From the NCBI GenBank assembly GCA_014360055.1, contig JACIYH010000025.1, forward strand, positions 1-32,344: a stretch of 32,344 nucleotides of DNA, written 5' to 3'. Below, piece after piece: positions 5,285-16,334 of this stretch. Position 1 is the first letter of the stretch, and each line of letters opens with the position of its first letter. The translations under genes and the position numbers were made by a program. The notes beneath the pieces were generated by a model. That model worked only from the letters and a program-made list of their open reading frames with translations. It was not told the DNA's origin and made no database searches. This DNA comes from Bacillota bacterium (GTDB taxonomy: Bacteria; Bacillota; Sulfobacillia; JACIYH01).

Positions 5285-6196
5285 CTACCCTCCGTCGCGG
5301 GCGGCCCTGAGCAGGCGCTCCCCCACCCGCCGCCCCAGTTCGCGGCCGGCCACCCGGTCCCCCGGACGGGCGGTCACCCGTTCCGTTACCCGGAAGATAC
5401 GCTCACCGGAGGGGGCATAAGCCCCGGTGAGCACCAGTTCCCTCTCCTCCCGCCGGGCCCATGCCCCCACCGGAACCCGGCAGCCTCCTCCCAGAGCCTC
5501 CAGCATGGCCCGCTCTGCCTCCACCGCCTGGCGGGCGTGGGGATCATCGATGCGGGCCACCAGTTCCCGCGTGGCGGCGTCGCCCGCCCTCACCTCCACG
5601 GCCAGGGCCCCCTGGCCCGGCGCGGGCAGGAACTCGTCGGGGAGGAAAAACTGGCTGACCCGCTGCGTCATCTCCAGCCTCCCCAGGCCGGCAGCCGCCA
5701 CCACCAGGGCATCGTACAGCCCCGCATCCAGCTTGCTCAGCCTGGTGTCCAGGTTGCCCCTCATCTCCAGTATGGCCAGGTCGGGGCGCAGGTGGCGCAG
5801 GAAGACCTTCCGGCGCGGGCTGGAAGTACCCACCCGCGCCCCGGGAGGGAGTTCCCCCAGGCGCCGCCCGTGGGACACCAGGGCCTCCCGCACGTCCCCC
5901 CGCACGGGGACAGCCGCCACGACCAGTTCCCGGGGACCCTTCAGGGGGAGATCCTTCAGGCTGTGGACGGCGGCGTGGGCCTCCCCCGCCAACACCGCCT
6001 GCTGCACCTCCCGCACGAACTCCCCTGTTCCCCCGGGGGTATTGACAGACCCTGCCGAGATCCGGTCCCCGCGGGTATGGACGATGAGGATGCGGATGGC
6101 CAGTCCCGGCATGGCGGCCTGCAGCGCGGCCCCCACCCACTGCGCCTGGGCCAGGGCGAGGGCGCTGCCACGGCTGGCCAGCACCAGTTCATCCAC
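5285..6196 (-). CDS. hemC: porphobilinogen deaminase (hydroxymethylbilane synthase)
   Basis: Polymerises four porphobilinogens to hydroxymethylbilane using a covalent dipyrromethane cofactor. Seen: LASRGSALALAQAQ at the N-terminus, HSLKDLPL with the catalytic aspartate (Asp82), GTSSPRRK and RGNLDTRL substrate loops, and the cofactor-binding cysteine in ALGGGCRVPVGA (Cys239). I chose the GTG ending at 6196: it has GGGGGAGGG about seven bases upstream, gives the standard N-terminus and overlaps the previous stop by only eight bases. A GTG at 6217 would add seven residues. Length 303 is normal. Confidence 0.95.
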   Translation of the reverse strand: MDELVLASRGSALALAQAQWVGAALQAAMPGLAIRILIVHTRGDRISAGSVNTPGGTGEFVREVQQAVLAGEAHAAVHSLKDLPLKGPRELVVAAVPVRGDVREALVSHGRRLGELPPGARVGTSSPRRKVFLRHLRPDLAILEMRGNLDTRLSKLDAGLYDALVVAAAGLGRLEMTQRVSQFFLPDEFLPAPGQGALAVEVRAGDAATRELVARIDDPHARQAVEAERAMLEALGGGCRVPVGAWARREERELVLTGAYAPSGERIFRVTERVTARPGDRVAGRELGRRVGERLLRAARDGG

Positions 6197-6881
6197 CTTG
6201 GGTCCCTCCCCCGCCACGGGCGCCGGGGTCCACCCGCACCCCCGGGTCGGCTACCCGCAGCCATGAGTCCAGCATGGCCAGCAGGGCCTCCCTTTCCCCG
6301 CGGGCAATGCATGTGGCACCGTCCAGGGCGGCCGCCCGCCGGAGCAAATCCTGGCGTGCCGCCGCGTCCCCCACCCTCTCCTGGACGCGACGGCGGAAGG
6401 AAGCCAGGACCTCCGCCCACTCGCCCACCTCGTCGCCCACCACATCTGCGATGCGATCCCGGATGAGCGCAGCCAGGGCGGGACTGGCTCCACCCGTGCT
6501 CACCGCCACGGTAACGGGCCCCCGCTGCAACACGGCCGGGGAAATGAAGTCCGACAACTCGGGGCAGTCAACCACGTTGACCAGCACCCCCGCCCGGCGG
6601 GCGGCCTTACAGACGGTCTCGTTGACGGCGGGGGTGGCGGCGGCAAAGACGATGAACATCCCCTCCACGTCCCGGGGCTCGAATTCTCCCTGGCGCCACC
6701 GCATGCGACCCTGGCGGACCAGATCCCGCAGGGGCGGTGCCAGGGAGGGGGACACCACCAGCACCTCCAGTCCGGCCCGCAGGCACTCTTCCACCTTGCG
6801 GTGGGCCACCGCTCCCCCGCCCACCACCAGGCACCGCTTTCCTGCAGCGCGCAACATCACCGCCAGGTGGCCTTCACTCAC
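6189..6881 (-). CDS. precorrin-2 dehydrogenase (siroheme synthase N-terminal type, Met8/CysG-N)
   Basis: NAD-dependent oxidation of precorrin-2 to sirohydrochlorin; full-length Met8/CysG-N proteins may also insert iron to give siroheme. Seen: the Rossmann motif CLVVGGGAVAHRKVEECL (residues 17-34), VVSPSL, FAAATPAVNETV, NVVDCPELSDFISPAV and VAVSTGGASPALAALIR, all typical of this family. At 230 residues it is about as long as the bifunctional CysG N-terminal half, longer than dehydrogenase-only YlnF types, so a ferrochelatase role is possible; no separate ferrochelatase gene is present in the window. The GTG start overlaps the hemA stop as GTGA, indicating translational coupling. The C-terminal tail is glycine-rich and probably disordered. 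Confidence 0.92.
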   Translation of the reverse strand: MSEGHLAVMLRAAGKRCLVVGGGAVAHRKVEECLRAGLEVLVVSPSLAPPLRDLVRQGRMRWRQGEFEPRDVEGMFIVFAAATPAVNETVCKAARRAGVLVNVVDCPELSDFISPAVLQRGPVTVAVSTGGASPALAALIRDRIADVVGDEVGEWAEVLASFRRRVQERVGDAAARQDLLRRAAALDGATCIARGEREALLAMLDSWLRVADPGVRVDPGARGGGGTQGG

Positions 6882-8205: not shown

Positions 8206-9225
8206 TCAACCGGCCTGGTGCGTCTTGCGGGACTTGAGGAAACGGGCGGATTCCAGGAGAAACTCACGTTCCTCGGGACCGAGTTCGCGCCAGAGGGCAC
8301 CCAGTTCCCGCACCTCCTCGTCCTCGCGCTGGGCCCCCTCGGGCAGCCTGGCCACCAGGGCCTCCACCACCCCTATCACCAGGTGGAAGTCGGACCTGCC
8401 CAGGCGCCCCAGCCGGGACAGGACCTCCCGTACCCTCGGCTCGGAGAGCAACTCCGCTACCTCGGGGGAAAGGGAACGGGTGACCTCCAGCACCTCTTCT
8501 TCGTCCATCAGGAAATAGCAGGGGGAGACGCCCAGCGCTTCCGCCAACAGGCTCAGGGTAGTCACCGAGGATTGTGTGCGACCGGACTCGATCTGTCCGA
8601 TCAGCCCGTAAGACACACCGGCTTTCTCGGCCACTTCCTTCTGGGTCAGGCCCAGCCGCTCCCGCAGGCGGCGCAGCTTCTCGCCCACCCCGTTGGCGCC
8701 CACCGATCTCACCAGCACACCGGGAGAAACCCCCAGCGCCCGCGCCAGTTTCTCCAGCGTGCGCACTGAGGGAGCGCTGCGGCCGCGCTCGATTTCCGAG
8801 ATGTGGGCCGGGGACAACCCGGTGGCGCGGGCCAGTTCCGTCACCGTGATCCCCTTCTGTTCCCGGAGCCTGCGTACGGTGCTCCCCACCCGCGCCCGTA
8901 CCTGGGTGCCTCCGGTATCGCAGCGGGCGCCCTCGGGTGCGCCTTCCGCCCCGGGGGAGTGGATATCCCGCGGCCGTCCCGGCTGCCCTTCCCCCGTTGG
9001 CGGGGACTCTTCACCCGGCCGGTCGGGCTCCCCCTCGCCCAGGAGTTCCTCCAGGGGTACCCCCAGGAAGCTGGCAGCCTCCTGCCAGGCAGCCATGGCC
9101 ATGCGCCGCTGCCCGGACTCCACTTCCTGCAGGCAGTCGGGGGCGATGGTCAGCCGGTCGGCCAGGTCCTCCAGGGATACCCCCCGCCTTTCCCGCCAGT
9201 AACGCAAACGTGGCCCTACCGCCAT
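8206..9225 (-). CDS. transcriptional regulator with three XRE-type helix-turn-helix domains
   Basis: A 339-residue probable DNA-binding protein. Three HTH_3/XRE domains are visible: residues about 6-60 (RERRGVSLEDLADRLTIAPD, then ESGQRR), 114-172 (REQKGITVTELARATGLSPA, IERGRSAPS) and 181-240 (RERLGLTQKEVAEKAGVSYG, IESGRTQSS). A low-complexity linker rich in Gly, Pro and Glu (residues 63-108) separates domains 1 and 2, while 2 and 3 are nearly contiguous. Residues 241-339 are charged and helical, like C-terminal regions of other Bacillota XRE regulators, with no sensor domain that I recognise. The ATG has GGGGGAG eight bases upstream and overlaps the previous gene by ten bases. It sits exactly between the sulfur genes and the siroheme genes, so a role in controlling them is an inference from context. 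Confidence 0.9.
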   Translation of the reverse strand: MAVGPRLRYWRERRGVSLEDLADRLTIAPDCLQEVESGQRRMAMAAWQEAASFLGVPLEELLGEGEPDRPGEESPPTGEGQPGRPRDIHSPGAEGAPEGARCDTGGTQVRARVGSTVRRLREQKGITVTELARATGLSPAHISEIERGRSAPSVRTLEKLARALGVSPGVLVRSVGANGVGEKLRRLRERLGLTQKEVAEKAGVSYGLIGQIESGRTQSSVTTLSLLAEALGVSPCYFLMDEEEVLEVTRSLSPEVAELLSEPRVREVLSRLGRLGRSDFHLVIGVVEALVARLPEGAQREDEEVRELGALWRELGPEEREFLLESARFLKSRKTHQAG

Positions 9226-10724
9226 AGCCCGACTCCCCCCCGCTCCCTTGCAAACCGGCGTGCCGCCTCCACCAGGGCGTGGGCCCAGCCCGGATAGGCG
9301 AGGGCGTGTACGTGCAGGTAAGAAGCAAACACACTGCCCCAGCGCAGGCCGTCCCAGCCCTGGCCCCAGCCCGTGCCCCGCCGCAGCCGGAAAACCATGT
9401 CCGCCACCGGCACCGCCGCCGGCAGGGAATGGTGGAACTCATGACCGCGGATGATTTCCCCCGGGGGGAAGTAGGGGTTGTCTCGCACCACTTCCGCCTC
9501 CACGTACCCGTGCCCGCGCGGGGTCGGGGACATCTCCACGTCGAAGGGGATGGCTCCCACCATCTCCCAGCGCTCCCCCTGCCAGGCGAGCGAGCGGCAA
9601 AGGTACATCAGGCCGCCGCACTCGGCGTAGACGGGTAACCCGGCGGCGATGGCCTCCCGCAGGGAGGCCCGCAGGCCCCCGTTGGCCTCCAGTTCAGCGG
9701 CAAACACCTCCGGGAAACCGCCCCCGATGTAGAGGGCCGCCACCGGCGGCAAGGCGGTGTCACGCAGTGAATCCACGAACACCAGCCGGGCTCCTGCCGC
9801 TTGCAGGCATTCCAGGTTTTCCGGGTAGTAGAAGCTGAACACCCGGTCCCTCATCACGCCCACGGGCACGCCATCACCCGCAACCCTACCGGCCGGCACC
9901 CCGTGCTGACCAACCCGGCCTGCCTCCTGCGCACCCGTGCCCGCCGGCACCGCGGCGGCTCCCTTCGGCGGGGAGACGCCCGCCTCCCCAGCACGGGCGC
10001 CCACCGGGCCGGCAAGTGCGAGCAGGCGGTCCAGGTCCACGCCCGCCTCGACGGCCCGTGCCGCCTCCGCCACCGCACCCTCGGCGAGCAGGCCATCGGG
10101 GCCCACCCTCTCGGCGGCGGGTACCAGCCCCAGGTGGCGGTCGGGCACCTCCACCTCCGGGCGCCGGGGGATGGCACCGAGCACGGGCAACCCGGCGTAC
10201 TGCTCCACCGCCGCCCGCACCAGTCGTTCCTGCCGGGGGGTGCCCACCCGGTTGAGGATCACCCCGACAAACCGCAGACCCTCTTCGAAACCGGTCACTC
10301 CCCGCACCACCGCCGCCGCCGTGCGGGTCATGCGGGTCACGTCCAGGAGGAGGACCACGGGCAAATTCAGGACGCGAGCCAGTTGAGCCGTGCTGCCCGA
10401 CCCGGCCAGATCCAGGCCGTCGAAGAGCCCCATGGCTCCCTCCACCAGGGCCAGGTCGGCGCCGGCGCTCGCCTCAAGAAAGCTCTGCCGCACCGTGTCC
10501 TCGCCCAGCATGAAGAGATCCAGGTTGCGGCAGGGCCGCCCGGCCGCCAGGGTAAGCCAGCCCGGGTCGATGTAGTCGGGTCCCTTCTTGAAGGGTTGCA
10601 CCCGCAGGCCCCGTGCCCGCAGGGCCGCACACAGGCCCATGGCCACCGTGGTCTTCCCCGATCGCCCCCGGGGTGCCGCCAGCACCAGTCCCCTCGTCCC
10701 CGGCCCCTGCTCTCCACGCCTCAC
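9216..10724 (-). CDS. CbiA/CobB-family a,c-diamide synthase; candidate siroheme amidase (DsrN-like)
   Basis: A 502-residue glutamine-dependent amidotransferase that amidates acetate side chains of a tetrapyrrole. N-terminal ATPase domain: P-loop LAAPRGRSGKTT (residues 15-26), then FKKGPDYIDPGWL and GRPCRNLD. C-terminal class I-like glutaminase: YIGGGFPEVFA, nucleophile Cys369 in YAECGGLMYL and a histidine near 471 in ASYLHVH. A poorly conserved linker lies between the domains. The family includes cobyrinate a,c-diamide synthase, CfbB (Ni-sirohydrochlorin) and DsrN (siroheme amide, next to dsrAB). No other cobalamin gene is present; the gene directly follows dsrAB-like genes (GTGA overlap) and precedes siroheme genes, which favours DsrN. 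The frame is open to 10886, but the GTG ending at 10724 has AGGGAG six bases upstream. Confidence 0.88.
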   Translation of the reverse strand: MRRGEQGPGTRGLVLAAPRGRSGKTTVAMGLCAALRARGLRVQPFKKGPDYIDPGWLTLAAGRPCRNLDLFMLGEDTVRQSFLEASAGADLALVEGAMGLFDGLDLAGSGSTAQLARVLNLPVVLLLDVTRMTRTAAAVVRGVTGFEEGLRFVGVILNRVGTPRQERLVRAAVEQYAGLPVLGAIPRRPEVEVPDRHLGLVPAAERVGPDGLLAEGAVAEAARAVEAGVDLDRLLALAGPVGARAGEAGVSPPKGAAAVPAGTGAQEAGRVGQHGVPAGRVAGDGVPVGVMRDRVFSFYYPENLECLQAAGARLVFVDSLRDTALPPVAALYIGGGFPEVFAAELEANGGLRASLREAIAAGLPVYAECGGLMYLCRSLAWQGERWEMVGAIPFDVEMSPTPRGHGYVEAEVVRDNPYFPPGEIIRGHEFHHSLPAAVPVADMVFRLRRGTGWGQGWDGLRWGSVFASYLHVHALAYPGWAHALVEAARRFARERGGVGLWR

Positions 10725-11533
10725 GGCTTCTCCCTCGCCTCTTCGCGTTCCTCCGCCCGGTCCAACCAGTCCCCCAGCCTCTCCCCGCAGGCCGCCCCGG
10801 CCCGCCACGCCTCCACCAGATCGACCACGTGCTCCACCACGCCGGGGTAATCGGGGGGCTCCGCCGGCAGGTATTCCCGGGCCCACCCCAACCGGGGGTG
10901 AAGACCGGCCCGGCCACCCGTGTAAAGGCGCACGCTAGGTCCCCGTCGGTAAGTCCCCATCAGGCCCAGGTCCGCCCCGTGGGCTCCTCCGCAATCGTTG
11001 GGACAGCCGGCCACGGAGATCCGCAGGGGGGCGGGAAGGCCGTCCCGGGCCAGCGGGAGCAGGACCTCCCCCAGCACCCTGGCAATGCCGGGCGAATCCA
11101 CCAGGGCGTTCTGGCAGTGCAGAAACCCCACGCACGCCTTCACCTGGTGCAGGGTGGGACCGGTCCCCCCGGGCAGCAGTCCTGCCAGGTGGACCTCTTC
11201 CATCAGAGCGGGCAGGCGGGCGGGATCCACGCCCACCAGTTCAAACCCCTGCCGGCTGGTCCGCCTACCCACCAGGGCGTATTCCCTTATCCACCGCGCC
11301 AGCAGCCGCAGGGTGGAAGAAGAGAGCACGCCCCCGGGGGGCAGGTGCAGGCGCAGGGTCCAGCACTCCGCACCATCCGCCGCCAGGTGACGCACCAGCC
11401 CGGGTCCCGGGTGGTCGTGCCCCACCCACTTCCCGTAATGCTCCCTCAGGAAGGAGGGGAGTTGCTCCCGGAAGTCCGCCACCAAACCGGCCGGCAGGAC
11501 CGGCTCCCCGCCGGGTTCAGGCCAGGTCGCCAC
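10721..11533 (-). CDS. DsrB-like sulfite reductase subunit without ferredoxin domain
   Basis: A 270-residue homologue of dissimilatory sulfite reductase beta subunit. Seen: LPSFLREHYGKWVGHDHPGPG (residues 25-45) resembles the DsrB N-terminus; VKACVGFLHC (Cys134, Cys140) matches the DsrB GWLHC region; RISVAGCPNDCGGAHGADLG holds Cys177 and Cys181. Together these give C-X5-C and C-X3-C, the ligand set for a siroheme-coupled [4Fe-4S] cluster. Right after this, where DsrB normally carries a ferredoxin domain of about 60 residues, the sequence goes straight to SVRLYTGGRAG and the C-terminal helices (ACGERLGDWLDRAEER). This explains the length of 270 against about 360-380 for DsrB. The GTG start at 11533 overlaps the dsrA-like end by 17 bases. 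Family assignment is good; substrate and direction are inferred. Confidence 0.85.
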   Translation of the reverse strand: MATWPEPGGEPVLPAGLVADFREQLPSFLREHYGKWVGHDHPGPGLVRHLAADGAECWTLRLHLPPGGVLSSSTLRLLARWIREYALVGRRTSRQGFELVGVDPARLPALMEEVHLAGLLPGGTGPTLHQVKACVGFLHCQNALVDSPGIARVLGEVLLPLARDGLPAPLRISVAGCPNDCGGAHGADLGLMGTYRRGPSVRLYTGGRAGLHPRLGWAREYLPAEPPDYPGVVEHVVDLVEAWRAGAACGERLGDWLDRAEEREEAREKP

Positions 11534-12392
11534 GGTCGTCCCACCCCATCTCACGCAGGATGCGGTCTCTCCCCAGCCGGTCGAGGAAGTCACCCACCCT
11601 CTCCCGGTTGCCGGCCAGGCGCGACCATACGTCCAGGAACCGCTCCCACAGGTCACCCACCACCCGGTAGTCCTCCTCCCCGGCCACGGGTACGAAGGGG
11701 ACCAGCACCCGGGCCGGGCGGGGGCAGCCGCCGGAGCGCGCCCCGTACTTGCCCCCCACCACCAGGGTGACGCCCCTCCCCTCTCGGGGGCGCTTCACCC
11801 CGATCAGGGCCAGGTCCCGGTGGGCGGCCCGCACGCAGTCATGTCCGCACCCCGCTACCGCCGGCTTACACTTGCGGGGTAGAGCGGGATACTGCTGCTC
11901 GTCCAGGAAGCGTCGGGCCAGATAGGTGGCCAGGGCGGGGGCATCCACCAGGGCTTCGTCACACCTGGCCGGACCCGCACATGCCACCACGCAGCGCAGG
12001 TCATCCCCGGTCGAGCCTACGTCCAGGCCCAGGGCATTCAATTCCCCTACCAGGGCGAGGGCTTCTTCGGGGGTCGTGTATATCTCCCACGTCCCCCCGC
12101 ACGCCAGGTGCAGCAGCCCCGCCCCCCGGCGCTCCACCAGGTCGGCCAGGGCCTCCAGCAGCCCGGCGGACATCCAGCCCCCCGCAGGGGGCAGCACCCG
12201 CAGGTACACCGACCACGGCCACTGGTCGGAACGCTGTGCCAGCCGCTGTCCCATGCCGGCGGGGAGCGGGAGGATGACTTCGGGATCCTCCGGTCCAAAA
12301 GGGGAACGGCTGCCGGTGACCGCCTCACAATACAGGGCCGTCGGGTAAGACGAACGCGAGATCTCCCCCAGGCGGTCGGGGTACCTCAGCAC
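11517..12392 (-). CDS. DsrA-like sulfite reductase subunit without ferredoxin domain
   Basis: A 291-residue homologue of dissimilatory sulfite reductase alpha subunit. Seen: the region LACGGTWEIYTTPEEAL corresponds to the DsrA segment before the cluster; CVVACAGPARCDEALVD (Cys138, Cys144) is the C-X5-C pair and CKPAVAGCGHDCVRAAHRD (Cys182, Cys186) the C-X3-C pair, followed by DLALIG. Only about ten residues later comes VTLVVGGKYGARSGG and LVPFVPV, and the end (NRERVGDFLDRLG, REMG) matches the DsrA C-terminus. The inserted ferredoxin domain of true DsrA is therefore cleanly absent. The start is uncertain: a GTG ending at 12392 overlaps the preceding dsrC-like stop (GTGCTGA), with no strong ribosome binding site; an ATG at 12425 is possible. 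It probably pairs with the following DsrB-like protein. Confidence 0.85.
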   Translation of the reverse strand: MLRYPDRLGEISRSSYPTALYCEAVTGSRSPFGPEDPEVILPLPAGMGQRLAQRSDQWPWSVYLRVLPPAGGWMSAGLLEALADLVERRGAGLLHLACGGTWEIYTTPEEALALVGELNALGLDVGSTGDDLRCVVACAGPARCDEALVDAPALATYLARRFLDEQQYPALPRKCKPAVAGCGHDCVRAAHRDLALIGVKRPREGRGVTLVVGGKYGARSGGCPRPARVLVPFVPVAGEEDYRVVGDLWERFLDVWSRLAGNRERVGDFLDRLGRDRILREMGWDDRGDLA

Positions 12393-12727: not shown

Positions 12728-14413
12728 CTACCCGTCTTGCAGGCCGTACGGCCAGGCCCATATCCCCCCCTCCAGGTAGCGGGACGGACCCAGCCCGGCG
12801 GCATCCAGCAAACGCTGGGCTTCAAATCCTCTCACGCCCATCTCGCACACGGCCACGATTTCCTGGCCCGGTAGCACTTGCTGGCGCACCTCGTCCAGGC
12901 GGTCGCGTAGCTCGGCCAGCGGGATGGCCAGGGCGGGATAGGGCAGGCGATGCGCCTCGTATTCGGCCGGTGTACGCACGTCCACCAGCAGAGGAGGCCG
13001 CGGCCCCTCCATGAGCGCTTTCAGCGCGGCCGCGCTGAGGGGCCGGGCCAGCCCGTCCCTCGCGTTGCGCGCCTGGTTGAGGGCGTGGAGACAAATGTCG
13101 AGGGCGGTGGCAAAGGGCGGCGCGTAGCCGAGATCCAGGTGGGCGGCCTGCTCCAGCGTGGCCCCGCAGGCCAGGGCGGTGGCCAGCACGTCTATGCGCT
13201 TGACCGCCTCCCCCGGACCCACCGCCTGGGCCCCCAGCAGCCGGCCGCTGGCGGCATCGGCGACCACCTTGAGGGCCAGGGGAGCGTGCATGGGATAGTA
13301 GTGCGGGGTGTCGGTGCCCGCCACCAGGGCCGTCACCACCCGGTACCCCAGGCGGCGTGCTTCCTCTTCGCCCAGCCCGGTGCGGGCCACGTTTTGCTCA
13401 GCCACCTGCAGAACGGCCGTCCCCACCACCCCGGGGAAACGCTCCTCACCCCCGGCCGCATTGGTGCCCGCCACCCGGCCCTGCTTGCCGGCAGTGGAGG
13501 CCAGGGGAAGCCACGTCTTCCGCCCCGACACCAGATGGGTGGTCTCGCAGCAATCACCGGCCGCAAATACGTCGGGGACGCTCGTCGCCTGCCGCTCGTC
13601 CACGGCGATAGCCCCCGTGGACCCGATCTCCACGCCCGCCCGCCGTGCCAGATCCACCTCCGGCACCACCCCGCAGGCCACCACCACCAGGTCGGCTTCC
13701 CCCTGCCAGGCGGACGCCCGCACGCGCAGGCCACCGTCCTCGCGGGAGATGGCGGTGACGGGCTCACCCGTCACCACCTGAATACCCATCGCCCCCAGGC
13801 GGGATTCCAGCAGCCGGGCCACATCCCGGTCCAGCAGGCCGGGGAGGAGGTGTTCGGCCGCCTCGCACACCGTGACCTGCAGTCGCCGGGCGGCGAGAGC
13901 ATCGGCCACCTCCAGGCCGATCATCCCCCCGCCCACCACCACGGCCCGGCGCCGGGGCGCCAGGGCCCGCCGCAGTCCTTCGGCATCCTCGGGCCGGTGC
14001 AGCCCGAAAACGCCCTCCTGATCCAGACCCTCGATGGGAGGCCGCCGGGGGACGGCACCGGTGGCGACGACGAGCCGGTCGTACGGGATGGTGAGGGTCT
14101 CCCCGGCCCGGCGGGCGCGCACCAGGCGTCGCTCCGGGTCGATCTCCTCCGCGGCGGTACCGGTGAGCACGCGCACCCGCTTCTCGCGCCAGAAGTACTC
14201 CTCGTCCCGCAGCACCCCGGCCGGGGTGGAGCGCAGTGGGGCCAGGGAGTCCACCAGGCCGGCCAGCAGGAAGGGGAACCCGCAACTGCCGTACGATACC
14301 AGGGGCCCCTTCTCCAGCAGGGTGATCTCAGCCTCGGGGTCAACCCGGCGTGCACGGGCGGCCGCCTTGGGCCCCGCCGCCACTCCCCCTATGACCACGA
14401 TCCGCCTCGCCAT
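12728..14413 (-). CDS. CoA-disulfide reductase / persulfide reductase with C-terminal rhodanese domain
   Basis: A 561-residue flavoprotein. Residues 1-450 are a pyridine nucleotide-disulfide oxidoreductase: FAD motif VVIGGVAAGPKAAARAR, active cysteine Cys44 in VSYGSCGFPFLL, NAD(P)H motif AVVVGGGMIGLEVADAL (about 156-172), FAAGDCCE with the second FAD contact, and a dimerisation domain. Residues about 465-561 are a rhodanese domain: LLVDVRTPAEYEAHRL and the active loop VCEMGVRG (Cys523). This is the CoADR-Rhd/Npsr architecture; known members reduce CoA disulfide, CoA persulfide or polysulfide with NAD(P)H. It lies between the two dsrC genes, 108 bases after the first and 90 bases before the second, which suggests that it handles sulfur held as persulfide or trisulfide. 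GGAGG stands ten bases before the ATG. Confidence 0.92.
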   Translation of the reverse strand: MARRIVVIGGVAAGPKAAARARRVDPEAEITLLEKGPLVSYGSCGFPFLLAGLVDSLAPLRSTPAGVLRDEEYFWREKRVRVLTGTAAEEIDPERRLVRARRAGETLTIPYDRLVVATGAVPRRPPIEGLDQEGVFGLHRPEDAEGLRRALAPRRRAVVVGGGMIGLEVADALAARRLQVTVCEAAEHLLPGLLDRDVARLLESRLGAMGIQVVTGEPVTAISREDGGLRVRASAWQGEADLVVVACGVVPEVDLARRAGVEIGSTGAIAVDERQATSVPDVFAAGDCCETTHLVSGRKTWLPLASTAGKQGRVAGTNAAGGEERFPGVVGTAVLQVAEQNVARTGLGEEEARRLGYRVVTALVAGTDTPHYYPMHAPLALKVVADAASGRLLGAQAVGPGEAVKRIDVLATALACGATLEQAAHLDLGYAPPFATALDICLHALNQARNARDGLARPLSAAALKALMEGPRPPLLVDVRTPAEYEAHRLPYPALAIPLAELRDRLDEVRQQVLPGQEIVAVCEMGVRGFEAQRLLDAAGLGPSRYLEGGIWAWPYGLQDG

Positions 14414-14521: not shown

Positions 14522-14839
14522 TCACACGCAACCGGTGGGCTTGGGCAGGCCAGCGATCTTGCAGGCCCCCTTGGCGGGTCCGCTGGGGAACAACTCATAG
14601 ATATACTTAAGCGTGAACCCCGTCTCCTTGCACAGCTTGCGGATCATGGGGGCGATGCCGAACTCCAGGTAGTAGTTGCGCAGGAAATTGACCACCTTCC
14701 AGTGGTCCTCCGTCATGTTCTCGATGCCTTCCATGCGGGCGAGGAATTCCGCCAGGTCATTGTTCCACAGGTCGGGATCCTGGATGAACCCGTCCTCGTC
14801 CACCTCGATCTTCTTGTCCTTGTACTCTATCTCCGGCAC
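14522..14839 (-). CDS. dsrC: DsrC family sulfur carrier protein
   Basis: A 105-residue canonical DsrC. Seen: DEDGFIQDPDLWNNDLAEFL at the N-terminus, ITEDHW-type helix (NMTEDHWKVVNFLRNYY), APMIRKLCKETG, and the C-terminal arm KGACKIAGLPKPTGCV with the two redox-active cysteines Cys93 and Cys104 ten residues apart. In sulfate reducers and sulfur oxidisers DsrC carries sulfur as a persulfide or trisulfide between these cysteines after reaction at DsrAB. Both cysteines are present, so this is a true DsrC and not a TusE-like form with one cysteine. The start is a GTG with an excellent GGAGGTG six bases upstream. It lies between the ferredoxin and the CoA-disulfide reductase genes. Confidence 0.95.
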   Translation of the reverse strand: MPEIEYKDKKIEVDEDGFIQDPDLWNNDLAEFLARMEGIENMTEDHWKVVNFLRNYYLEFGIAPMIRKLCKETGFTLKYIYELFPSGPAKGACKIAGLPKPTGCV

Positions 14840-14953: not shown

Positions 14954-15142
14954 TCAGAGTTCCTGCACCACGATGGCGGCCTGCTCGCACACCGCCTCGC
15001 AGGAGCGGCAACCCATGCAGTCGTCGGGGTTACCGGTAACTTCGACTTTACCATCGTTCAGCACCAGGATCAAGGCTGGGCAGACCTCCACGCACTTGCC
15101 GCAACCCTCGCACTTGTCCGCATCCACGTTGACCAGGTACAC
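14954..15142 (-). CDS. 2[4Fe-4S] ferredoxin
   Basis: A 62-residue bacterial-type ferredoxin, an electron carrier in the cytosol. Two full cluster motifs are visible: Cys11, 14, 17, 21 (CEGCGKCVEVCP) and Cys42, 45, 48, 52 (CMGCRSCEAVCE). Nothing is fused to it. The GTG start has AAGGGA about six bases upstream. Its place between the transporter and dsrC, in a cluster whose DsrA- and DsrB-like proteins have lost their own ferredoxin domains, makes it a candidate electron donor (or acceptor) for that enzyme. That link is inference. Confidence 0.93.
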   Translation of the reverse strand: MYLVNVDADKCEGCGKCVEVCPALILVLNDGKVEVTGNPDDCMGCRSCEAVCEQAAIVVQEL

Positions 15143-15251: not shown

Positions 15252-16334
15252 TTACCCGGCCGGGAACAGGATGCCCCCGAAGACCAGGTAGGCCACACCC
15301 AGGGCCAGCACGGTATTGAAGATGGTGGCGATGATATACACCATGGTGGGCCCAAAGCCCAGCCGCTTGAACTCGCCGAAGGAGAGTTCCAGGCCGATGC
15401 ACACGAACGCCAGGGCGAAGGCCCATTCGCGGAAGTTCCCCGCCATCTTAACGGTATCCTTGCTGAGCAGACCCAGGCTCAGGATGAGGGACACCACGAC
15501 GAACCCGATCACGAACTTGGGGAAGCGGTCCCAGATGACCCTGGCGCTGGGCCGCTCGCCCGTGCCGCCGTTGCGGCGCTCGACCACGGTGGTGAAGTAG
15601 AGGGCCAGGATGAAGGCCACCACACCGATGAGAGCGTTCTGGGACATCTTCACGATGGAGGCCACCTTCATGGCCGCCTCACTGTGGATGGCCCCCGCGC
15701 CTACCACCGCCGCCGTGGTATCGATGTTGCCCCCGAACCAGGCACCCGCCACCTGTGTGGGCAAGCCCCAGGCGTGGGCCAGGTAGGGCATCAACACCAT
15801 CAGAGGAAGGGCCGTGAAGATGACCAGGGCGGTGATGTAGGTCAGCTCCTCCTTGCCGGCCAGCACCGACCCCGCCGCCGCGATGGCGGCCGATACACCA
15901 CAGATGGAGATGGCGGTGGCCATCACGGCCCGCATCTTCTCGGGCAGTCTGAAGACACCTCCCAGCCAGTAGGTGAACAGGAACACGCAGGTGACCATGA
16001 TGAGAGCCTGTACGATGCCCTTGCCGCCCACGACACCGATTTCCTTGATGTTCACCTTGAGGCCCAGCAGCACGAGACCGATCTTCAGGAACAGCTCCGT
16101 CCTGACCGCCGGCATGATGAACTGCTTGGTGCCGGTGACGGTGAGGATGATGTTCGCGATGAGACCCAGGGCGGCGGCCCAGAGCGGGTATTCCAGAGCC
16201 TTGTGCACACCCGGGTGGTTGGAGAGGTAGTTGGTCAGCACCGCGAGGCCGACGATCAGCGCCAGGCCCAGGATCAGGCCCGCAGTCTTATTTGTCGGAG
16301 CCGGCCTGACAGCCGTACCCGGTTGACTCGACAC
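15252..16334 (-). CDS. YeiH/UPF0324 family membrane protein (putative sulfate/sulfite exporter)
   Basis: A 360-residue integral membrane protein of the YeiH family (Cons_hypoth698, annotated as putative sulfate exporter). Nine or ten hydrophobic segments alternate with short loops; family stretches are KIGLVLLGLKVNIKEIG, ATAISICGVSAAIAAAG, AGAWFGGNIDTTAAVVGAG and a C-terminal FVCIGLELSFGEFKRLG repeat-like half. The GTG start has GGGGGTG eight bases upstream, inside the end of a 35-residue membrane ORF; the two are seven bases apart. Other family members carry an extra N-terminal helix with a DWW-type motif, which here seems to be that separate ORF. First large gene of the sulfur cluster; transport of sulfite, sulfate or a sulfonate is plausible from context but not shown. 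Confidence 0.88.
   Translation of the reverse strand: MSSQPGTAVRPAPTNKTAGLILGLALIVGLAVLTNYLSNHPGVHKALEYPLWAAALGLIANIILTVTGTKQFIMPAVRTELFLKIGLVLLGLKVNIKEIGVVGGKGIVQALIMVTCVFLFTYWLGGVFRLPEKMRAVMATAISICGVSAAIAAAGSVLAGKEELTYITALVIFTALPLMVLMPYLAHAWGLPTQVAGAWFGGNIDTTAAVVGAGAIHSEAAMKVASIVKMSQNALIGVVAFILALYFTTVVERRNGGTGERPSARVIWDRFPKFVIGFVVVSLILSLGLLSKDTVKMAGNFREWAFALAFVCIGLELSFGEFKRLGFGPTMVYIIATIFNTVLALGVAYLVFGGILFPAG

Follow-up and report, generated by a model that had tools for sequence, protein, structure and literature searches.

A short DsrAB-like pair without ferredoxin domains in a Bacillota genome, apparently a reduced form of the basal type I lineage

The locus and its short dsrAB pair

The window analysed here, a stretch of 32,344 nucleotides of contig JACIYH010000025.1 from a Bacillota bacterium of the class Sulfobacillia (GenBank assembly GCA_014360055.1), carries two overlapping genes for DsrA- and DsrB-like proteins of 291 and 270 residues, which we call shortA and shortB. 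A preliminary description made from the sequence alone had presented them as a minimal pair devoid of the ferredoxin (Fd) domain in both subunits, and its coordinates, lengths and open frames proved correct. Because the DNA is continuous through both frames and their overlapping junction, the Fd domain is truly missing from the genes and not hidden by a frameshift. The best protein families were NCBIfam dsrA for shortA (123 bits; cut-off, 393) and dsrB for shortB (132 bits; cut-off, 342), each matched in two blocks flanking the missing domain and below the canonical equivalog cut-offs (TIGR02064 and TIGR02066). Among solved structures, DsrA was the top match of shortA (E 4e-23) and DsrB that of shortB (E 4e-26), again as two blocks split by the Fd domain of the target. 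Consistent with the absence of the domain, the alignment had no CxxCxxC motif in any of the three shortA or three shortB sequences, as opposed to 27/27 longer A and 27/27 longer B rows. A fold that fails to superpose on DsrA and DsrB, which would have spoken against the preliminary description, was not observed for shortA, whose AlphaFold2 model (predicted local distance difference test, pLDDT, 72) found DsrB and DsrA chains as best Foldseek matches at a template modelling (TM) score of 0.67. The shortB model (pLDDT 71) was a weaker test: DsrB ranked first (E 1.6e-13) but with a TM score of 0.40. Both models are of modest confidence.

The pair and its neighbours are arranged as follows:

15252-16334, reverse strand: YeiH/TIGR00698-like putative anion (sulfate/sulfonate) exporter
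14954-15142, reverse strand: free 2[4Fe-4S] ferredoxin of 62 residues, whose homologue adjoins canonical dsrAB in relatives
14522-14839, reverse strand: dsrC, 105 residues, with both C-terminal cysteines present (CKIAGLPKPTGCV)
12728-14413, reverse strand: CoA-disulfide-reductase-like flavoprotein with a C-terminal rhodanese domain, 561 residues
12386-12637, reverse strand: dsrC2, a shortened DsrC of 83 residues, overlapping the shortA start
11517-12392, reverse strand: shortA, Fd-less DsrA2 of 291 residues, GTG start
10721-11533, reverse strand: shortB, Fd-less DsrB2 of 270 residues, GTG start, 17-nt overlap with shortA
9216-10724, reverse strand: CbiA/CobB family amidase in the dsrN position (siroheme amidation), its start overlapping the shortB stop (GTGA)
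8206-9225, reverse strand: XRE-type regulator, conserved beside dsrN in relatives
6189-6881, reverse strand: precorrin-2 dehydrogenase/ferrochelatase-type (CysG N-terminal) gene for siroheme supply

The overlaps at the dsrC2/shortA, shortA/shortB and shortB/dsrN boundaries suggest that these four genes form one operon, dsrN being assigned here by CbiA/CobB family and position rather than by a DsrN tree. Past the XRE regulator follow hemA, the CysG N-terminal gene, hemC, hemD/cobA, hemB and hemL. The free ferredoxin lies upstream (15142-14954), as the preliminary description had it, and is separated from the short pair by dsrC, the CoA-disulfide-reductase-like gene and dsrC2. The DsrC2 of the window lacks the first ~36 DsrC positions and ends exactly in the terminal Cys, with a second Cys 11 residues earlier. 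This second Cys is kept in the genus and in genomes G028 and G226, and is Ser in Moorella-type DsrC2 (window and loci L089-L101). In the two sister genomes of the genus, G001 and G002, genes resembling dsrMK separate dsrC from the CoA-disulfide-reductase gene (L031 4692-6674; L032 5407-7399); in the genome of the window they are found on another contig (L115, contig C15, 1391-3371).

The genome that holds the window (2.7 Mb, 99.8% complete) also carries canonical dsrAB on contig C32. Contamination was considered for this 3.5-kb contig and ruled out by close homologues in G001 and G002 and by the same glycosyltransferase neighbour in G001. Throughout the genus, canonical dsrAB stands isolated beside a glycosyltransferase gene, away from the other dsr genes (L007, L029, L033), and in G001 it is upstream of rimP-nusA-infB. 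A single siroheme protein of 244 residues without an Fd domain is encoded beside nrfHA-like cytochrome genes in the window's genome (L008 7239-7973, contig C64) and also at L035.

The search for other short pairs proposed in the preliminary description found one in each of the three genus genomes, all separate species, and in none of the 151 other genomes of the class (0/151); no Fd-less pair appeared among about 540 other genomes searched. In a sample of 398 genomes from the phylum, profile searches with shortA detected matches of 206-262 bits in 13, which belong to families f60 and f80; canonical DsrA scored about 60-82 bits. These homologues, which include the DsrA2 of Moorella thermoacetica DSM 521T (G165), are two-block matches inside frames of 375-425 residues with the Fd domain present; within the two DsrA2-bearing classes (22 and 3 genomes) we found Fd-containing versions and no Fd-less ones. 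Most f60 genomes have the order dsrC-dsrC2-A2-B2-cbiA/dsrN-XRE, matching the slot of the short pair in the window. A separate scan with N-terminal patterns from the shortA alignment returned three distant loci only; the patterns were poorly chosen and the scan is no evidence of absence elsewhere. In G002, shortA and shortB are fused in a single frame of 634 residues through a low-complexity linker of ~50 residues (L032 9487-11391), which supports a putative 1:1 complex of the two subunits.

Descent of the pair and history of the Fd domain

A DsrAB phylogeny was run on three shortA and three shortB sequences, 12 pairs of DsrA2 and DsrB2 (A2/B2), 15 canonical pairs and Fd-bearing Dsr-LP outgroups, with the Fd columns removed; aSir/NirA repeats and Fd-less Dsr-LP sequences were left out of the set. 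In these trees, shortA grouped with DsrA2 (support 100/99) and shortB with DsrB2 (98/99), to the exclusion of canonical DsrA and DsrB, and the concatenated tree returned the same grouping with 100/100. The best tree nested the short sequences within A2/B2, beside family f80 (95/80 for shortA and 83/96 for shortB), and a single clade of all six short rows was rejected (p 7e-5). Because trees stripped of the Fd columns put shortA next to DsrA2 and shortB next to DsrB2, each subunit would have lost some 60-64 residues at the same position. The alignment agrees, with that many residues missing and the flanks intact. The shortA junction is at about residue 200-202, between LIGVK and RPREGRGV (in the alignment, LIGVK followed by RPREGRGVTLVVGGKYG), where the A2 protein of M. 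thermoacetica reads FIGVY, 60 residues including CWRCMAC, and then RPGRERGVAWVAGGKYG. The shortB junction, at about residue 195-202 between GTYRRGPSV and RLYTGGRAG, marks 64 missing residues.

All A2, B2, canonical A and canonical B rows have the insert with CxxCxxC, and the Dsr-LP outgroups have an insert at the same place, which makes loss of the Fd domain the simplest history. The preliminary description had left the choice between an ancestral state and a secondary reduction; together, the outgroups and the junctions support loss. An ancestral DsrAB pair predating the Fd insertion, in the manner of group I Dsr-LP, would agree with the proposal of Susanti and Mukhopadhyay in which the group I proteins, without an Fd domain, are the earliest (PMC3448663), with the standing of the lineage as the deepest DsrAB branch and with the CX5C...CX3C motif in B. 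However, the insert is at the same place in 12/12 A2/B2 pairs, 15/15 canonical pairs and the Dsr-LP outgroups, so that this history would require A2, B2, A and B each to have gained it separately at one and the same position. With the short rows inside A2/B2 in the best trees and their genes in the same operon slot, we consider such an origin exceedingly improbable.

The pair had also been put forward as a distinct DsrAB-like lineage. It is separate from canonical DsrAB, but the lineage is not new: from its sequence, the pair is a member of the Moorella "second copy" or "basal type I" DsrAB. In the account of Neukirchen et al., the Moorella locus holds a second, early-branching dsrAB with dsrC and dsrN as neighbours, which is expressed and functionally uninvestigated (PMC10504309). 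A 2026 study uses the name basal type I for the basal Firmicutes/Chloroflexota group and remarks that sulfite-reducing activity has yet to be demonstrated for it (PMC12948486). In our reading of these two papers, both refer to the same lineage; the Chloroflexota members lie outside our comparison. The adjacent dsrC and dsrN genes of basal type I are found at the window locus. Its other hallmark, an inserted Fd domain with a peripheral [4Fe-4S] cluster in each subunit, is lacking in all three species. By descent, then, we describe the pair as a reduced variant of basal type I and an architecturally atypical DsrAB. We did not find an Fd-less DsrAB described in the searchable literature, coverage of which is incomplete; there, the pair appears to be an undescribed, reduced form within a known lineage.

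Ratios of nonsynonymous to synonymous substitution rates (dN/dS) between the three species, obtained as simple NG86 estimates on GC-rich DNA, were about 0.15-0.24 for shortA, 0.25-0.31 for shortB and 0.08 for canonical DsrA. Hence, the short pair is under purifying selection, weaker than that on canonical DsrA. Decay of the gene copy under relaxed selection, or an error of assembly, would be in keeping with a dN above that of canonical DsrA or DsrC and with the draft state of the three genus assemblies. We nevertheless find either very unlikely, as the same deletion recurs in the same operon in three species, with intact frames, dN/dS values well below 1 and invariant ligands.

Catalytic residues, electron supply and possible function

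The sulfite-binding residues of shortA (R65, R133, K174 and K176) and the cysteines of its siroheme-coupled cluster (C138/C144/C182/C186) are invariant in 3/3 shortA and all A2 rows. The cluster cysteines of shortB (C134/C140/C177/C181) are invariant in 3/3 shortB rows and in the B2 rows. The preliminary description was thus right that the siroheme/[4Fe-4S] cysteines are all present, but the CX5C that it took as kept in B differs from the canonical DsrB pattern. All shortB and all 12 DsrB2 rows (15/15) have CX5C...CX3C, like aSir/Fsr, whereas canonical DsrB carries T where the first Cys would stand, followed later by a CC pair (CXnCCX3C; 15/15 rows), a signature that shortB lacks. At the position of DsrA Thr136, where the loop alignment is less certain, the three shortA proteins have Cys, A2 proteins have Ser, Thr, Ala or Asn, and canonical A has Thr. 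The positively charged residues of a site are contributed by one protomer and the cluster by its partner (PMC10229431), so the functional site would combine A residues with the B cluster. In the short pair, one catalytic site is probably intact.

The CX5C...CX3C motif in both subunits, the general NIR_SIR fold and the fused A-B protein of G002, which resembles the two-repeat layout of CysI, could be taken to indicate halves of a short assimilatory sulfite or nitrite reductase rather than DsrAB. Yet DsrA and DsrB lead both the family and the structure matches, a tree built without aSir/NirA repeats divides the sequences between the DsrA and the DsrB clade, and the operon contains dsrC and dsrN; we find this alternative scarcely credible. 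Assimilatory two-repeat reductases of the same class (L047-L053) were examined as relatives and set aside, being single frames of 520-630 residues with weak scores.

We therefore favour, as the rather more probable reading, a secondarily reduced basal type I DsrAB that works as a siro(am)heme heterodimer with electrons from a soluble ferredoxin. In this model, shortA and shortB would form a DsrAB-type heterodimer with siro(am)heme coupled to a [4Fe-4S] cluster, shortA giving the sulfite-binding Arg/Arg/Lys/Lys set and shortB the cluster cysteines. With the peripheral-cluster domain cut from each subunit at the same position, a soluble ferredoxin would most likely dock at the vacated face and deliver electrons in trans, as in ferredoxin-dependent plant sulfite reductase, and the sulfur product or intermediate would pass to DsrC and/or DsrC2. 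Fsr, DsrA and DsrB all carry the inserted Fd domain at one position, and it is there that maize sulfite reductase (SiR) docks a separate ferredoxin (PMC10229431), which makes docking at the vacated face the best-supported mechanism. The neighbouring ferredoxin, suggested earlier as the donor in trans, is a plausible candidate but not one specific to the reduced pair. The idea that it is a dedicated substitute for the Fd domain is weakened by homologues beside Fd-containing canonical dsrAB in relatives. One such genome, G028, has the same operon (ferredoxin, dsrC, CoA-disulfide reductase, dsrC2, YeiH, cbiA and XRE) with canonical dsrAB in the slot and no second copy seen (L038 6097-15998). As to substrate, aprA gave only weak matches in genus genomes G000 and G002, and the AprA-like protein of G001 (L110, C6:55552-57231) scored 398 bits, under the family cut-off of 642, making sulfite or another sulfur compound likelier than sulfate as the source.

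Several observations weigh against a ferredoxin-fed sulfite reductase of this descent. The short clade is faster-evolving (stem of 0.93 in the concatenated tree) and canonical DsrAB is already present in the same organism, so that a changed or weakened function is possible. Homologues of the free ferredoxin adjoin Fd-containing canonical dsrAB in G020, G028 and several DsrA2B2 genomes; no member of basal type I has a known activity (PMC12948486); the geometry of the shortB model as a whole is poor (TM 0.40; root-mean-square deviation about 19 A); and a tree in which the short rows branch just outside all A2/B2 rows was not rejected by the approximately unbiased test (p 0.11, 0.41 and 0.12). 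The redundancy, the accelerated evolution and the lack of demonstrated activity in the lineage, along with the loss of both peripheral clusters and the shortened DsrC2 next door, would also fit a siroheme protein that does not carry out multi-electron sulfite reduction and for which the electron-entry domain was therefore dispensable. Such a protein could act in sulfur transfer, persulfide or trisulfide handling on DsrC/DsrC2, sulfite or nitrite binding, or a chaperone or regulatory role. We hold this possible but doubtful, as three species share the full sulfite-binding set of four residues and every cluster ligand, and the ferredoxin, siroheme-synthesis and dsrN genes are retained alongside. 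Less likely still is that the Fd domains were shed for a siroheme reaction of another kind, non-reductive or low-electron, such as sulfur exchange with the shortened DsrC2, which might then be the function of the whole basal type I lineage.

Significance and relation to known sulfite reductases

Basal type I DsrAB is used to root the DsrAB tree and thus matters for estimates of when sulfite respiration arose. A natural variant with the catalytic core and no peripheral cluster in either subunit allows one to test whether catalysis requires the Fd domain and whether a soluble ferredoxin can stand in for it. That Fd-less DsrAB can apparently arise by loss cautions against reading small siroheme proteins as primitive, and the natural A-B fusion independently mirrors the duplication-fusion put forward for assimilatory enzymes. 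With scores of 123-132 bits, far under the cut-offs, the pair would be missed by dsrAB annotation and surveys that apply family thresholds.

The closest known system is the second copy of M. thermoacetica, whose DsrA2 is ~51-52% identical to shortA over the shared part. Both have the neighbours dsrC-dsrC2-A2-B2-dsrN-XRE, the R/R/K/K set, CX5C...CX3C in both subunits and a host with canonical DsrAB. Moorella differs in keeping the Fd insert with C + CxxCxxC in both subunits, absent from the window pair, and the A-B fusion is found in one sister species of the window's genus. The canonical reductive DsrAB of D. vulgaris (2V4J) and A. fulgidus (3MM5) shares the A/B fold and order, the sulfite-binding residues in A and the association with DsrC and DsrN, but has Fd domains, Thr136 in A and CXnCCX3C in B where the short pair has no Fd domain, Cys and CX5C...CX3C. 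Like group I Dsr-LP, or low-molecular-weight sulfite reductase (alSir), the pair has a siroheme-[4Fe-4S] core without an Fd domain. Those enzymes are, however, single proteins outside the DsrA and DsrB clades, whereas the short pair consists of a DsrA and a DsrB placed within the A and B clades relative to Fd-bearing Dsr-LP outgroups and presumably became Fd-less by loss. Maize SiR in complex with ferredoxin (5H92) provides the working analogy for electron entry: the external ferredoxin docks where DsrAB has its Fd domain (PMC10229431), although on a single two-repeat polypeptide with one siroheme site, an assimilatory role and a [2Fe-2S] ferredoxin.

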